Of a DNA stretch of 32,742 bases, positions 20,739-26,524 are shown piece after piece. This DNA is from an uncultured Oscillospiraceae bacterium. Its GTDB lineage: Bacteria; Bacillota; Clostridia; Oscillospirales; Oscillospiraceae. The notes beneath the pieces were generated by a model that ran no database searches, was not told the DNA's origin, and was given only the letters and a program-made list of their open reading frames with translations. The position numbers and the translations under genes are program-made. The stretch covers positions 1-32,742 of the forward strand of contig CALXCR010000106.1 of the NCBI GenBank assembly GCA_944386855.1, read 5' to 3'. Every line of letters starts with the position of its first letter. Within the stretch, counting starts at the first letter, position 1.

Positions 20739-21170
20739 ATGAAAGATGTTATAATATCAATAAAAAACTTCGAGCAAACGGACAGAGGGCTTGAAGAGGT
20801 CGTAGAGTTCGTAACGGAAGGGCAATACGAGTTTTCGCAGGAGAAAGCACTTATTGCCTACGAAGAAGTGGAGTTTACTTCGTCAGGCGGCTGTTTCACG
20901 ACATATACGGTCGAAAATGACACGATAATGATGACGCGAGTTGGCGTGGTAAATATGCAGATGCTGTTTCAGGAGGGGAAAAGACACTATTTTGTACACG
21001 AGACCCCATACGGGAAAATATCCATGGGAGTCGATACAAGCGGGATTATAAACCGCCTTAATTATGACGGCGGATATCTGGAGATAAGGTGCACTGTTGA
21101 ATTTATAAACTATGCAGTTTACAGCAATGTATATAAGATAAACATTAAAGAGAAAAAGGATGATAACTGA
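20739..21170 (+). CDS. DUF1934 (YwiB-like) calycin-fold protein
   Basis: A 143-residue protein matching the DUF1934 pattern: an eight-stranded barrel with MKDVIISIKNFEQTDRGLEE at the start, YEFSQEKALIAYEE in the middle, and DTIMMTRVGVVNMQMLFQEG plus the late YGKISMGVDTSGIINRL. The function is unknown. The ATG at 20739 was chosen because the homologous region begins there; the ribosome binding site is weak. The Bacillus subtilis relative ywiB also precedes argS, so this pairing is conserved. Its stop lies one base before the chosen argS ATG. Confidence 0.82.
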   Translation: MKDVIISIKNFEQTDRGLEEVVEFVTEGQYEFSQEKALIAYEEVEFTSSGGCFTTYTVENDTIMMTRVGVVNMQMLFQEGKRHYFVHETPYGKISMGVDTSGIINRLNYDGGYLEIRCTVEFINYAVYSNVYKINIKEKKDDN

Positions 21171-21171
21171 G

Positions 21172-22869
21172 ATGGCAAATATGATAGAGGCGGCAAAAAA
21201 GCAGATAGACGAGCTTGTAAACGCCGCGTATAAAACTGCGGCGGATAAGGGAAAACTCCCGTCCGGCTGTACGCTGAAGGGTACGGTAGAGATTCCGAAA
21301 GACACGTCGCACGGCGATTACGCCTGCGGATACGCCATGGCCGCCGCAAGGGATATGAAAATGCCGCCCCGCAAGATCGCTGAGGCGCTTGCCGAGGAGA
21401 TCCGCCTTGAAAACAGCTTTTTTGAAAGCGTCTCGATCGCCGGCGCGGGATTTATGAATTTCAAGCTCTCGCACAAGTGGTATGAAGAGGTTTTAAAAGA
21501 GATAGAGGCCGAGGGCGATAGTTACGGCAATATCGACGAAGGCCACGGTGAACGTGTAATGGTCGAATTTGTGTCCGCAAACCCGACAGGGCCGATGACG
21601 ATCGGAAACGCGCGCGGCGGCGTGCTGGGCGATACGCTCGCCTCTGTTTTGGAACGCGCCGGATATAACGTATGGCGCGAGTTTTACGTCAACGACGCCG
21701 GCAATCAGGTCGACCTGTTCGGAAAATCAATAGAAGCGCGCTATCTCCAGATCTGTCTCGGCGAGGATGCCGTCGAGTTTCCCGACAACGGCTACCACGG
21801 TGACGATATAAAAGATCTCGCGCGTATGATATACGAAAAGGACGGCGACAAATATGTAAACGTCGAAAGCGAAGAGCGCAGGAAGGCGTTTACCGATTTT
21901 GCGCTGCCGTATAATATCGCGCTTATGAAAAAACATCTCGAACGGTACAGGATAAAGTTCGACGAGTGGTTCTTGGAGAGCAGCCTGCATAAGAGCGGCT
22001 ATGTCGCCGAAACCGTAAAGCTCCTCGAGGATAACGGCTACACATATGAGAAAGACGGTGCGCTCTGGCTTAAAAATACCGAGCTCGGCGCCGACAAGGA
22101 CGAGGTTTTGCGCCGCGCGAACGGGTTTTACACATATTACGCCGTCGATATCGCGTATCACCGCAATAAATTTGTCGAGAGAGGTTTCGACCGCGTGATC
22201 GACGTATGGGGCGCCGACCACCACGGCCACTCGATACGCTTCAAGGCCACGATGGGCGCAAAAGCGCTCGGCATAGATAAGGACAAGCTCGATTTTCTGA
22301 TCATGCAGATGGTTCGCCTCGTGCGCGACGGCGAAACCGTGAAAGTTTCGAAGCGTACCGGCAAGGCGCTCACGTTAAACGACCTGCTCGACGAGATATC
22401 GGTAGACGCCTGCCGCTTCTTCTTCAACGCAAAGCCCGATACGCACCTTGAGTTCGATCTCGACCTTGCCGTGCGGCAGGACAGCGAAAATCCCGTGTAC
22501 TACGTCCAGTACGCGCACGCGCGCATATGCAGTCTGATAGCGACCCTGCTCGCAGACGGCAACGCCGTGAAGCCGATGGCCGGTATCGACGCCGGACGCC
22601 TTACCGCTCCGGAGGAGATAGACCTGATAAAGCAGCTCTCGCTCCTGCCGGAGGAGATACGCCTCGCCGCGCGCGATTACGACCCGTCGCGCATCAACAG
22701 ATATGTGTGCGAGGTCGCTGCGCGCTTCCACAGGTTCTATAACGCCTGTCATATAAGGGGCGAGGAGCAGGAACTGCTCGACGCAAGACTGAAGCTTGCC
22801 GACAGCGCCCGAACCGTTATCAAGAACTGCCTGACTATCGTCGGCGTAACGGCTCCGGAAAAAATGTAA
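21172..22869 (+). CDS. argS: Arginyl-tRNA synthetase
   Basis: Class Ia synthetase that charges tRNA-Arg. From the ATG at 21172 (AAAGGA about 11 nt upstream) it has 565 residues; an ATG at 21160 overlaps the upstream gene and would have almost no spacing. Order: N-terminal Add1-like domain, the SANPTGP motif followed by the signature MTIGNARGG, the catalytic core with the WGADHHGHSIRFKA segment, KVSKRTGK (KMSKS equivalent), and a C-terminal DALR anticodon-binding domain. The first His of the HIGH-type motif (usually HxGN or HxGH) is Thr here, which is unusual; all other motifs are intact. Confidence 0.96.
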   Translation: MANMIEAAKKQIDELVNAAYKTAADKGKLPSGCTLKGTVEIPKDTSHGDYACGYAMAAARDMKMPPRKIAEALAEEIRLENSFFESVSIAGAGFMNFKLSHKWYEEVLKEIEAEGDSYGNIDEGHGERVMVEFVSANPTGPMTIGNARGGVLGDTLASVLERAGYNVWREFYVNDAGNQVDLFGKSIEARYLQICLGEDAVEFPDNGYHGDDIKDLARMIYEKDGDKYVNVESEERRKAFTDFALPYNIALMKKHLERYRIKFDEWFLESSLHKSGYVAETVKLLEDNGYTYEKDGALWLKNTELGADKDEVLRRANGFYTYYAVDIAYHRNKFVERGFDRVIDVWGADHHGHSIRFKATMGAKALGIDKDKLDFLIMQMVRLVRDGETVKVSKRTGKALTLNDLLDEISVDACRFFFNAKPDTHLEFDLDLAVRQDSENPVYYVQYAHARICSLIATLLADGNAVKPMAGIDAGRLTAPEEIDLIKQLSLLPEEIRLAARDYDPSRINRYVCEVAARFHRFYNACHIRGEEQELLDARLKLADSARTVIKNCLTIVGVTAPEKM

Positions 22870-22974: not shown

Positions 22975-23003
22975 TTGACACAGATATATAAGTATTGTAA
23001 AAT
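22975..23003 (+). promoter_or_regulatory. Strong housekeeping promoter of the peptidase cassette
   Basis: Perfect -35 TTGACA (22975-22980), 17-bp spacer, -10 TAAAAT (22998-23003), in AT-rich sequence. It gives an approximately 115-nt leader before the secreted peptidase gene. This is among the best promoters in the window. Confidence 0.75.
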
Positions 23004-23127: not shown

Positions 23128-24216
23128 ATGAAAAAAACGCATAAGAGAACCGTATCTTTAGTGTTAGCAATCGTAATATGCCTTTCGTTTTCGGTTTCTG
23201 CGTTTGCAGCGGCGATGCCTTCTTTGCTTGTCAGTGAAGTGACTGAAATAGTCAACTCTATAATGACTGCGATAGAGCCAAATAAATCGATGTACGGGCT
23301 CGGCGGGGTAGATTTTACTGATCTTACGCTGGGACAGGAGATACCGGCCTATGAAATGAAATCATCAGGGCCGGCAAGACTGACCGAGGTTCATTATTTC
23401 CCGATTCTCAGTGCGGGACAGTGGGTCGCAACCGCGACGGTTTCATATAATGAAGAGGGAGAAACGAACGTAACGGTTTCGCGGGATTACATAGATACAT
23501 ATGAAGCCGCAGCGACATCCGTAAATACCGGCGCCGCAATCATTTTTGATACAAACAGTGCGTATATCTATACGGGCGCTGAGGTAGAAGTGGTCGAGAT
23601 GTCGACCGAGGCGACAGCCGGCCGCGTCACACTTAATCGGAATGTGGCTATGCCGGTAATAGCTATGTCAAACTTCGCCACGGTTGCGGATATCGAATTG
23701 GAAAATGTGGCGGCAACGACGAGCTCAGATGTTACAGGCACATTTCTTCTTAATGTTCCTGCTGTACAACAACCTACCGCATATACTTGTTGGGCAGGTG
23801 CGCTGTCATCAATATTCAGGTATTACGGCACTAATTTAACACCTACACAAATTATGTCTAGATCTGGCTATGGGAATCAGATGATTTCTATAAGTAGTGC
23901 GGTGGGATACGCCCAAGATGAAGGATTTAACACAGGCTATGTGTATTGGCCGTCCCTGCTTACATTATCGTTCATTAGAGACGTAACGCAAGGTGACAAG
24001 CATCCTATTTATGCCTCGTTTTCTAACAATGGGATTGGCCATGCGGTTGTAATACGGGGTTATAGCGCGACGACAAGTAATCCAATAATATCATATATGG
24101 ATCCTGCAAGCGGCACATACAAGGCAAGCAACTACCCGTCAGATGGCACACCGACTTATGTAACTGCATCAGGCACTACGCTTTATTTAGATGGTGGATT
24201 CGCGCCGTATAAATAA
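23128..24216 (+). CDS. Secreted C39-like (papain-fold) cysteine peptidase
   Basis: 362 residues with a clear Sec signal peptide (KKTHKR, a hydrophobic core, cleavage near AFA-A at about 27-28). An Ala/Thr/Val-rich segment (30-205) of unknown fold, possibly a propeptide, precedes a C-terminal peptidase domain (about 205-350). The likely triad is C221 in AYTCWAGALSSIFRYYG, H305 in GIGHAVVIRGYS and D325 in ISYMDPASGTY, with Q213 or Q214 as oxyanion-hole candidates. This is the C39-like/staphopain-type pattern, not an ABC-transporter peptidase, because no membrane or ATPase domain is present. The 3' half is visibly more AT-rich than the 5' half. It has its own strong promoter and leads three lipoprotein genes. 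Substrate unknown. Confidence 0.8.
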   Translation: MKKTHKRTVSLVLAIVICLSFSVSAFAAAMPSLLVSEVTEIVNSIMTAIEPNKSMYGLGGVDFTDLTLGQEIPAYEMKSSGPARLTEVHYFPILSAGQWVATATVSYNEEGETNVTVSRDYIDTYEAAATSVNTGAAIIFDTNSAYIYTGAEVEVVEMSTEATAGRVTLNRNVAMPVIAMSNFATVADIELENVAATTSSDVTGTFLLNVPAVQQPTAYTCWAGALSSIFRYYGTNLTPTQIMSRSGYGNQMISISSAVGYAQDEGFNTGYVYWPSLLTLSFIRDVTQGDKHPIYASFSNNGIGHAVVIRGYSATTSNPIISYMDPASGTYKASNYPSDGTPTYVTASGTTLYLDGGFAPYK

Positions 24217-24244
24217 GCATATGCATATAATGAGGAGAACGATG

Positions 24245-24919
24245 ATGAAGAAAAGTGTTTATATTCTCATAATATGTTTGTTGACTCTCACCCTCTCCTC
24301 GTGCGGGCGGGATATCGGTTATTTCCGTGAAGTAGGCGACGTGTGTACGCTTGAAGTGGTGTCAGAATCTTCGGAAAACGATGAAAGAATGGAACAAAGC
24401 TTAAGCTTTACCGTAACGGAAAATTCCGCGCCGATATATGGACTGCTATTGGACTTTCTTGATGATGACGGAATGTACCATGGGAGCGAAGATGGCCGCG
24501 AAATAGCAGAAATCAATCTGGAGCTTGGATATCGGGGTTTTGAAGCGGTTTTTTGTTCGCGAGAGCCGTTTGAGATGGAATACACGATGGCAATGTCTCG
24601 GTACGGGCTTGACTCGGATGAACTTATATATGTCAGCGATAATGAAGAGACCGTGCGGACATTGTCGGGTGACGTTATAATTAAATGTTCGGACGGTGAT
24701 TGGTATGCCGGTAAAATTCTGGTCAGCCCATATGCTGGATATACCATTGAAGGTGATTTTTCGGAGGTTGCGCCTTTTTATGAAGCGTATGAGCCGGACT
24801 ATGATACAACGCACAGTGAAACGGTGATAGACAATAAAAACTGGGATATACCATTGACCGGATACACTCAAGAGGCGTTACAGTACTATATCGAGCAGTA
24901 TTTGACCGAAGAACAATAA
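24245..24919 (+). CDS. Lipoprotein paralogue 1 (unrecognised family)
   Basis: 224 residues from the ATG at 24245 (GAGGAG 7 nt upstream; the adjacent ATG at 24242 is also possible). It has a lipoprotein signal with lipobox LSSC, acylated C20. After it come GYFREVGDVC, a beta-rich middle with a second conserved Cys in AVFCSREPFEM, the EVAPFYEAYEPDY motif and a C-terminal helix ALQYYIEQYLTEEQ. All of these recur in the next two genes. It is the most diverged of the three and lacks their YNG and GLLYGDEAF stretches. It would be membrane-anchored on the outer face. Function unknown. Confidence 0.75.
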   Translation: MKKSVYILIICLLTLTLSSCGRDIGYFREVGDVCTLEVVSESSENDERMEQSLSFTVTENSAPIYGLLLDFLDDDGMYHGSEDGREIAEINLELGYRGFEAVFCSREPFEMEYTMAMSRYGLDSDELIYVSDNEETVRTLSGDVIIKCSDGDWYAGKILVSPYAGYTIEGDFSEVAPFYEAYEPDYDTTHSETVIDNKNWDIPLTGYTQEALQYYIEQYLTEEQ

Positions 24920-24922
24920 AAA

Positions 24923-24955
24923 CTCACCTCCGGCGGTTCACACGCCGGAGGGGAG
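24923..24955. terminator. Hairpin between lipoprotein genes 1 and 2
   Basis: CTCACCTCCGGCG (24923-24935) pairs with CGCCGGAGGGGAG (24943-24955), with one A-G mismatch. The plus strand has no T-run after it, so it may be a weak terminator or mRNA stabiliser. The same GC core reappears after lipoprotein gene 3, which suggests it was duplicated with the gene. Confidence 0.5.
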
Positions 24956-24977
24956 TTCGCTAAGGAGGTGACCGCAC

Positions 24978-25745
24978 ATGAAAAGACTGATATCGCTTAT
25001 TGCGATATGTGCACTTTTGTTCACCCTCTCCTCGTGCGGGCAGGCGGACAGTCAGACCTCGGAGCAGAGCGCATCAGACAGCAGCGTTGTTCAGGCGGAG
25101 CCGGGCGAGAACGGCTACTTTTACGAGATAGACGATAGCTGTGTCATCCTCTACAACGGGCGCTATGCGGACGAGTCGAGAGATGATGTGTACGGCTTTG
25201 AATGGACGATAACGCTACTCGAAAACAGCGCCCCTGTCTACGGGATAGCCCTTCCACAGCTGGATGAAACCGGCCTGCTTTACGGCGACGAGGCGTTCAG
25301 AGAGTTCAGCGATTGGCTTGCGGAGCTTCCAAAGTCGGGATCCACGTATTATTCGGTGGAGTTTCTTTTCTGCTCCAAATCTCCGTTTATGTACAACCTT
25401 GCGATAAAAGATTTTCAAAGCCGCGTCGGAGAACACTCCACTCATGAGACGCTGTACGATCTTTATAGTGAAGACCTTGACAATACCTTTACGCTGGAAG
25501 CAGGCGGCGAGACATGGTATGTTGCAAGGCGCGGCAACAACCTGTACAGAGATGGGGAGATAGACGTTGAAAATGTAGATTTCCCCGGCGTCGCGCCGTT
25601 TTGGCACGGTTACGAGCCTGAGCCGATAGAAAATCCGGTCGTCGGCGTCCAGGACAATAAAGAAAAATACGGCGAAGAGGGCGAGTACGGCGGCTATTAC
25701 TACGAGGCGCTGCAGCACTATATCGAGCAGTATTTGGTTGATTAA
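24978..25745 (+). CDS. Lipoprotein paralogue 2 (unrecognised family)
   Basis: 255 residues. The ATG follows AAGGAGGTG by 7 nt. The lipobox is LSSC with C20. It has a longer Ser/Gln/Glu-rich linker after the Cys (about 22-44), then NGYFYEIDDSCVILYNGRY, SAPVYGIALPQL, GLLYGDEAF, FLFCSKSPF, a WYVAR segment, FPGVAPFWHGYEPEP and a Tyr-rich C terminus, YYYEALQHYIEQYLVD. It is clearly paralogous to gene 3 and more distantly to gene 1. Exported, acylated, beta-rich; function unknown. Confidence 0.75.
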   Translation: MKRLISLIAICALLFTLSSCGQADSQTSEQSASDSSVVQAEPGENGYFYEIDDSCVILYNGRYADESRDDVYGFEWTITLLENSAPVYGIALPQLDETGLLYGDEAFREFSDWLAELPKSGSTYYSVEFLFCSKSPFMYNLAIKDFQSRVGEHSTHETLYDLYSEDLDNTFTLEAGGETWYVARRGNNLYRDGEIDVENVDFPGVAPFWHGYEPEPIENPVVGVQDNKEKYGEEGEYGGYYYEALQHYIEQYLVD

Positions 25746-25779
25746 AAGCCTGCGGCCGAAAGAGAGGAGGACTCATTAT

Positions 25780-26481
25780 ATGAAAAAGTCTATAGCGCTG
25801 CTTCTAGTGATCGCACTGGTTGTGACCCTCTCCTCGTGCGGCTCGGCCGACGTCGGATATTTCTATGAAATAGACGAGACCTGTACCATCGTGTATAACG
25901 GCTCGTATAGCGACGACGGGCAGGAGGATACGGACAATATAAGCTGGACGGTGACGATATTGGAAAGCGAAAGCCCCGTGTACGGGATAATCTTTCCCGA
26001 AGTCGATGAAAACGGCCTGCTTTACGGCGACGAGGCGTTCGCCGGAGAGCGTGCGGACGGTTCGGACGATGCGGATTACACGATGGATTTCTGCCTGTGC
26101 TCGAAATCGCCGTTTACATATTCGGTCAGCATCGACAAGCTTATGATCGACACCACGCCGACCGCCACGGTGGAGCATCCGTACGACTATGAAAGCGAGG
26201 AAGAGAGACCGTTTAGGGTCAGAGCGGGCGGAGAAATATGGTATATCGACCGTTTGCCGGCGTTCCCTTTGTATGACGATTGGGAAATAGACGTGGAGAA
26301 CGCCGATTTTTCGGGCGTCGCACCGTTTTACGACGGCTATGAGCCGGAACCGGTGGCCGGCCCGGGAGGTTACGGCGTAGTTGACGACAAGGAGAGCTAC
26401 GGCGAGGCCGGCGACTTTTCCGGATACTATTACGAGGCGATGCAATACTATATCGAGCAGTATCTGACCGAAGAACAATAA
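25780..26481 (+). CDS. Lipoprotein paralogue 3 (unrecognised family)
   Basis: 233 residues. The ATG at 25780 follows GAGGAGG by about 8 nt; upstream in-frame starts overlap gene 2. The lipobox is LSSC with C20. It shares VGYFYEIDETCTIVYNGSY, GLLYGDEAF, CLCSKSPF, EIWYIDR, FSGVAPFYDGYEPEP and the C-terminal YYYEAMQYYIEQYLTEEQ with its neighbours. The last 30 or so bases before the stop nearly match those of gene 1 at DNA level. It is strongly acidic. Function unknown. Confidence 0.75.
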   Translation: MKKSIALLLVIALVVTLSSCGSADVGYFYEIDETCTIVYNGSYSDDGQEDTDNISWTVTILESESPVYGIIFPEVDENGLLYGDEAFAGERADGSDDADYTMDFCLCSKSPFTYSVSIDKLMIDTTPTATVEHPYDYESEEERPFRVRAGGEIWYIDRLPAFPLYDDWEIDVENADFSGVAPFYDGYEPEPVAGPGGYGVVDDKESYGEAGDFSGYYYEAMQYYIEQYLTEEQ

Positions 26482-26483
26482 AA

Positions 26484-26524
26484 AATCCCCTCCGGCGTGT
26501 AAACGCCGGAGGGGATTTCGTTTT
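26484..26524. terminator. Bidirectional terminator between the lipoprotein and copper units
   Basis: AATCCCCTCCGGCG (26484-26497) and CGCCGGAGGGGATT (26504-26517) form a perfect 14-bp stem with a 6-nt loop. The plus strand continues TCGTTTT and the minus strand continues with six T. It serves the lipoprotein unit on one strand and copZ on the other. Confidence 0.85.

Follow-up and report, generated by a model that had tools for sequence, protein, structure and literature searches.

An exported papain-like cysteine peptidase and the lipoprotein encoded directly behind it may form a functional pair, in which a secreted, zymogen-type peptidase is matched with a guard tethered to the cell surface (lipoprotein 1) and works like the C10 protease/inhibitor pairs of Bacteroides. 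This reading is held tentatively, with somewhat less than even confidence. The genes lie in the window (the whole stretch of 32,742 nucleotides that was analysed), which comes from a draft assembly of 174 contigs, and they form a cassette of four plus-strand open reading frames, the peptidase gene being followed by three lipoprotein genes (Table 1). The promoter that a sequence-only reading of this DNA had placed ahead of the peptidase was found as a near-consensus site that matches 11 of 12 consensus bases, and only three promoter-like sites as good occur across the whole window. An Rfam scan of the locus gave no match near any cut-off.

Table 1. Features of the peptidase–lipoprotein cassette and its flanks (window coordinates)
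Feature	Position	Strand	Remarks
argS	21160-22869		upstream flank of cassette
Sigma-70-type promoter-like site, TTGACA-17-TAAAAT	22975-23003	+	upstream of peptidase; leader of ~118 bases
Exported papain-like cysteine peptidase, 362 aa	23128-24216	+	signal peptide, N-terminal domain, Peptidase_C70/C39_2 domain
Lipoprotein 1, 225 aa	24242-24919	+	lipobox LSSC; low GC3 like peptidase
G+C-rich hairpin	24927-24951		between lipoproteins 1 and 2; near copy of 26482-26519
Lipoprotein 2, 255 aa	24978-25745	+	lipobox LSSC
Lipoprotein 3, 233 aa	25780-26481	+	lipobox LSSC; beta-rich AlphaFold2 model, C-terminal helix
Hairpin at cassette end	26482-26519		best terminator score on minus strand
HMA-domain protein gene	26724-26530	-	convergent with cassette
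Copper-type ATPase gene	29013-26740	-	convergent with cassette

The peptidase begins with a signal peptide, and its catalytic domain (residues 208-331 in Pfam) passes the cut-offs of two families, Peptidase_C70 (PF12385; 33.3 bits for a cut-off of 19, 5e-8) and Peptidase_C39_2 (PF13529; 30.6 bits for a cut-off of 24, 6e-7). The match to PF03412, the peptidase C39 of bacteriocin ABC transporters, is weak and falls just under its cut-off (21 bits against 22), and no transporter domain was found by Pfam. The Cys221-His305-Asp325 triad put forward from the sequence holds up: all three residues sit at these positions together with Gln215, the probable oxyanion residue, and the active-site columns are conserved in relatives, with Gln215 and Cys221 invariant in four of them and His305 kept in three of the four. 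The region of residues ~27-200, which has no Pfam family but is common to relatives in other genera, is likely a pro-domain to judge from its position. At E <= 1e-5 the peptidase is the only C70-type match in the source genome; its single-sequence structure model was useless (pLDDT 34). Two related genes elsewhere depart from this architecture: one encodes the peptidase-type N-terminal domain alone, with an N-terminal membrane segment and no peptidase nearby (L061:5184-5822), and the other is a peptidase relative with the catalytic Cys and without the His (L015:4736-5809), which is probably inactive because the catalytic His is absent.

Each of the three lipoprotein starts has a ribosome-binding site and leads into a lipobox, and the first start lies 25 bases past the peptidase stop on the same strand. 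On the basis of the ribosome-binding sites and the position of the signal peptides, the starts of lipoproteins 1 and 3 given in Table 1 are likely to be correct, in preference to 24191 and 25738. The three proteins are true paralogues, with identities of 35-52% (52% for 2 and 3, 35% for 1 and 3). The motifs that had been described as common to them are so only in part, given that the C-terminal helix motif E-A-[LM]-Q-[YH]-YIEQYL ends all three, whereas SKSPF and GVAPF-GYEPEP occur only in lipoproteins 2 and 3, their counterparts in lipoprotein 1 being SREPF and EVAPFYEAYEPDY. From the lipobox Cys to the shared domain, lipoprotein 2 has a long linker rich in Ser, Glu and Gln, and lipoproteins 1 and 3 have almost none; no processing motif is common to the three.

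That these lipoproteins belong to no assignable family was borne out in every library searched, by profile, sequence and fold, and no match was found in Pfam, NCBIfam, PHROG, PADLOC or the PDB. The AlphaFold2 model of lipoprotein 3, built from three sequences and of modest confidence (pLDDT 63, pTM 0.67), consists mainly of beta structure and has a helix at its C-terminal end. A lipocalin-like beta-barrel, the fold of staphostatin and Bfi/Bti inhibitors, is no more than a possibility for this beta-rich model, which had no match at E <= 0.001 in the PDB or among viral models (Foldseek). The fold search with this modest model gave no sugar-binding match either, and a better model might yet uncover a known fold. 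Outside the source genome, no homologue turned up among 401 genomes from its family and a draw of 104 from its order, which were sampled and scanned with a loose first pass, and no second genome of the same genus appeared among the relatives. Nor was one found in pattern-based scans of GTDB and IMG/VR or in plasmid and phage collections; these scans were likewise silent for the peptidase, which does have relatives, and their silence is therefore weak evidence. The weaker profile matches of the lipoproteins were signal peptides or chance. With regard to the pairing drawn in the sequence-only reading, the data contain no lipoprotein homologue away from a peptidase, and no different function was confidently indicated by the structural searches.

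Base composition divides the cassette. The GC3 values of the peptidase (0.43) and lipoprotein 1 (0.46) do not differ (p = 0.5), and both differ from those of lipoproteins 2 (0.63) and 3 (0.68) with p = 3e-4 to 2e-9, argS having 0.70. Since they share a GC3 unlike that of lipoproteins 2 and 3 and argS, the peptidase gene and that of lipoprotein 1 appear to be one low-GC unit of single origin, while lipoproteins 2 and 3, with their host-like GC3, look like older residents. The hairpin behind lipoprotein 1 has a terminator score on the minus strand only and lacks a T-run on the plus strand, so that the ending of the peptidase message at this point is putative. The hairpin at the cassette end would, on the minus strand, terminate the convergent HMA-domain protein and copper-type ATPase genes. 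The final 60 bases of the lipoprotein 1 gene, together with the hairpin after it, closely repeat the corresponding stretch at lipoprotein 3 (local score 124, shuffled maximum 20). At the other end of the genes, the three lipoproteins, for all their divergence, have the same 17 bases over the lipobox, ACCCTCTCCTCGTGCGG (24290-24306, 25023-25039 and 25825-25841); these bases are absent from the rest of the genome even when one mismatch is allowed, which suggests exchange between the copies. Elsewhere, the codons of shared residues agree no more often than expected from codon usage in lipoproteins 1 and 2, and in 1 and 3 the excess is slight. Taken together, these patterns fit a duplication of the lipoprotein followed by exchange at the gene ends.

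Because the lipoproteins have no homologues, the neighbourhood survey was run from the side of the peptidase, with genes in the relatives' genomes called from open reading frames and ribosome-binding sites. Counting the window, 10 of 11 peptidase loci have, as the next gene on that strand, one for an exported protein anchored in the membrane; without it the figure is nine of ten relatives from other genera, against 16 of 72 background genes (binomial p = 1e-5, a value that is optimistic because exported proteins tend to cluster and the background may be too low). The proposal of a peptidase with a surface partner thus gains support as far as the anchored protein directly downstream is concerned; for the lipoproteins it is narrowed, since GC3 ties only the first of them to the peptidase. 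In six loci (L015, L043, L044, L047, L058 and L059) the neighbour has one N-terminal membrane segment, and several of these genes overlap that of the peptidase relative or start within 15 bases of it; behind the short peptidases of L016, L042 and L046 it has a signal peptide and a C-terminal membrane segment. The exception is L060, with a transposase-like gene. The pattern is absent from three exported C39-like proteins outside the clade (L094, L095 and L098).

The anchored neighbours belong to several differing families, and the window lipoproteins match none of those tested. A leave-one-out profile showed the neighbours of L015, L058 and L059 to be mutually homologous, although their family is present in only 12 of 121 genomes, and this argues that the adjacency is not random. 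The other members of the family mostly have no adjoining peptidase, in the source genome as well, and the idea that the family is dedicated to the peptidase was rejected for this reason; the source-genome member lies upstream of a cation-ATPase-like gene with no peptidase close (L083:4302-4793). The neighbours of L043, L044 and L063 were not recovered as members by the leave-one-out profile. A further candidate explanation, that the neighbours of the three short peptidases are split-off N-terminal domains in the manner of SpeB/Spi, is not put forward, since an initial 57% gave way to p = 0.04 after trimming of the signal peptides. A distant kinship of the window lipoproteins with the anchored family of the relatives, or with the lipoproteins near the L043 relative, was not supported either (hhalign probabilities of 0.3% and 0.2%), and their comparison with the N-terminal domain of the peptidase gave 0.4%, so the likeness to the enzyme's own pro-region that is typical of Spi-type inhibitors was not seen.

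Other arrangements were seen around the relatives. At L043:3695-11079 there are two tandem modules, each with its copy of a lipoprotein (45% identity), of a single-pass membrane protein (57%) and of a small exported protein (62%); one contains the peptidase, and in the other its place is taken by an exported protein (302 aa) that is unrelated. This cautions that lipoproteins encoded near such peptidases may be independent of them. A single-pass membrane protein and a small exported protein (~124-145 aa) adjoin the peptidase relatives at L016:2664-4695, L042:3687-5597, L043:6266-7464 and L015:2773-4628. The former is a candidate anti-sigma factor, with a sigma-factor-like gene in three cases, and the arrangement is possibly a regulated exported-peptidase cassette; neither protein is present at the window locus. 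The gene of a 159-aa lipoprotein is closely preceded by a short remnant of a peptidase at L063:2554-3373, and the same genome has a second copy of this lipoprotein with no adjoining peptidase seen (L086:4982-5461).

If the two genes do act together, the peptidase would be exported as a precursor, and its N-terminal domain, judging from the architecture, would probably hold it in a folded, inactive state until it has left the cell. Lipoprotein 1 would be translated from the same transcript, sit anchored on the outside of the membrane and bind the peptidase there, either shielding the producer's own surface or holding the enzyme at it. Lipoproteins 2 and 3, paralogues that have diverged, would belong to a second unit of host-like composition and could broaden the protection or perform a related surface task. 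The export signals, the catalytic residues, the paralogy, the adjacency and the anchored neighbour in relatives are observed; co-transcription, binding and inhibition are what we infer for the pair. Several observations favour this reading: a catalytic domain above two Pfam cut-offs with conserved active-site columns, lipoprotein 1 placed 25 bases behind with the same GC3, the anchored exported product of the next gene in nine of ten relatives, and the published parallel in Bacteroides (PMC3462683, PMC2873492). That the slot behind the peptidase is filled by differing anchored families is as expected if the producer needs a surface guard or tether.

The chief alternative, which is also possible though doubtful, is that the lipoproteins are a lineage-specific surface family, duplicated in tandem and unrelated to the peptidase, whose gene arrived beside them. 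The tie between lipoprotein and peptidase rests on one locus in one genome, and the lack of homologues in some 500 genomes of the family and order, and in the collections, is what fast-evolving orphans would give. The host-like GC3 of lipoproteins 2 and 3, the hairpin between the first two lipoprotein genes and the L043 lipoprotein, present in two modules of which only one has a peptidase, point the same way. The tethered guard is further weakened by the lack of likeness of the lipoproteins to the relatives' anchored neighbours, the L043 lipoproteins and the peptidase N-terminal domain; by their size, larger than that of staphostatin-like inhibitors, to which no PDB sequence match was found; by the differing families of neighbours, the homologous one being mostly without an adjoining peptidase; and by the clustering of exported proteins, which may make the background of 16/72 too low. 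Against an unrelated family stand the composition that lipoprotein 1 shares with the peptidase 25 bases ahead of it and the anchored protein that the relatives keep in that slot.

Two further roles have been considered for the lipoproteins. They could be substrates, freed from their lipid anchor as ectodomains by cleavage at the cell surface, for which the linker of lipoprotein 2 offers a plausible site; this is improbable, as lipoproteins 1 and 3 are nearly without a linker and no common processing motif exists. Still less probable is a toxin–immunity system, in which the peptidase would be released to attack neighbouring bacteria and the lipoproteins would confer immunity, their diverged tandem copies covering variants. 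Polymorphic toxin systems do include C39-like domains among their toxin domains (PMC3482391), and tandem diverging paralogues would suit an immunity array, but the peptidase is a plain exported protein in which the domain libraries revealed no delivery domain, repeat or toxin module.

Should lipoprotein 1 indeed be a guard, a peptidase clade with members scattered across the order, and with no described partner found in the literature, would gain an extracellular, membrane-tethered control of proteolysis; inspection of the gene just behind the peptidase would then be a cheap route to partners. A broader claim is considered unlikely: the three lipoproteins would form a new class of cysteine-peptidase inhibitors tethered to the surface, and it would be a rule in these bacteria that the gene of an exported C70-like peptidase, N-terminal domain included, directly precedes that of an anchored guard, taken from unrelated families in different genera. 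If the guard is an error, the locus none the less illustrates cleanly how an orphan lipoprotein family limited to one genus expands in tandem.

No peptidase–lipoprotein cassette of this type was found described in a literature search, and the comparison is therefore with partial parallels. The catalytic domain is that of Peptidase_C70 (PF12385) and Peptidase_C39_2 (PF13529), with the difference of an extra N-terminal domain absent from Pfam. With the peptidase C39 of bacteriocin ABC transporters (PF03412) it shares, by a weak match, the fold family, but the window peptidase is exported and free-standing. In staphylococci and streptococci, staphopain/staphostatin and SpeB/Spi also combine a secreted papain-fold peptidase with an adjoining, dedicated partner gene; the presumed site of action of staphostatin and Spi is the cytoplasm (PMC3462683), whereas the partner candidate here is an extracellular lipoprotein in three copies, and no match to the solved staphostatins in the PDB was obtained by profile or single sequence. 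Closest are the C10 proteases of Bacteroides, co-transcribed with small, beta-rich, exported and in part lipoprotein inhibitor-like proteins of staphostatin type (PMC3462683, PMC2873492). The Bfp/Btp proteases and their Bfi/Bti partners resemble the window in an exported papain-like peptidase with an N-terminal pro-region (a likely one in the window), a partner gene within tens of bases and, sometimes, more than one inhibitor-like gene per protease (PMC2873492, PMC3462683), and lipoprotein 1, like staphostatins and Bfi/Bti, is encoded on the same strand adjoining a papain-like peptidase (25 bases). They differ in that the window peptidase is C70/C39_2-like, not C10, and in that Bfi/Bti have 116-138 aa against the 225, 255 and 233 aa of the window lipoproteins. 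The claim is accordingly limited to a pair that, while outside the staphostatin type by size and sequence, may work like such a system.
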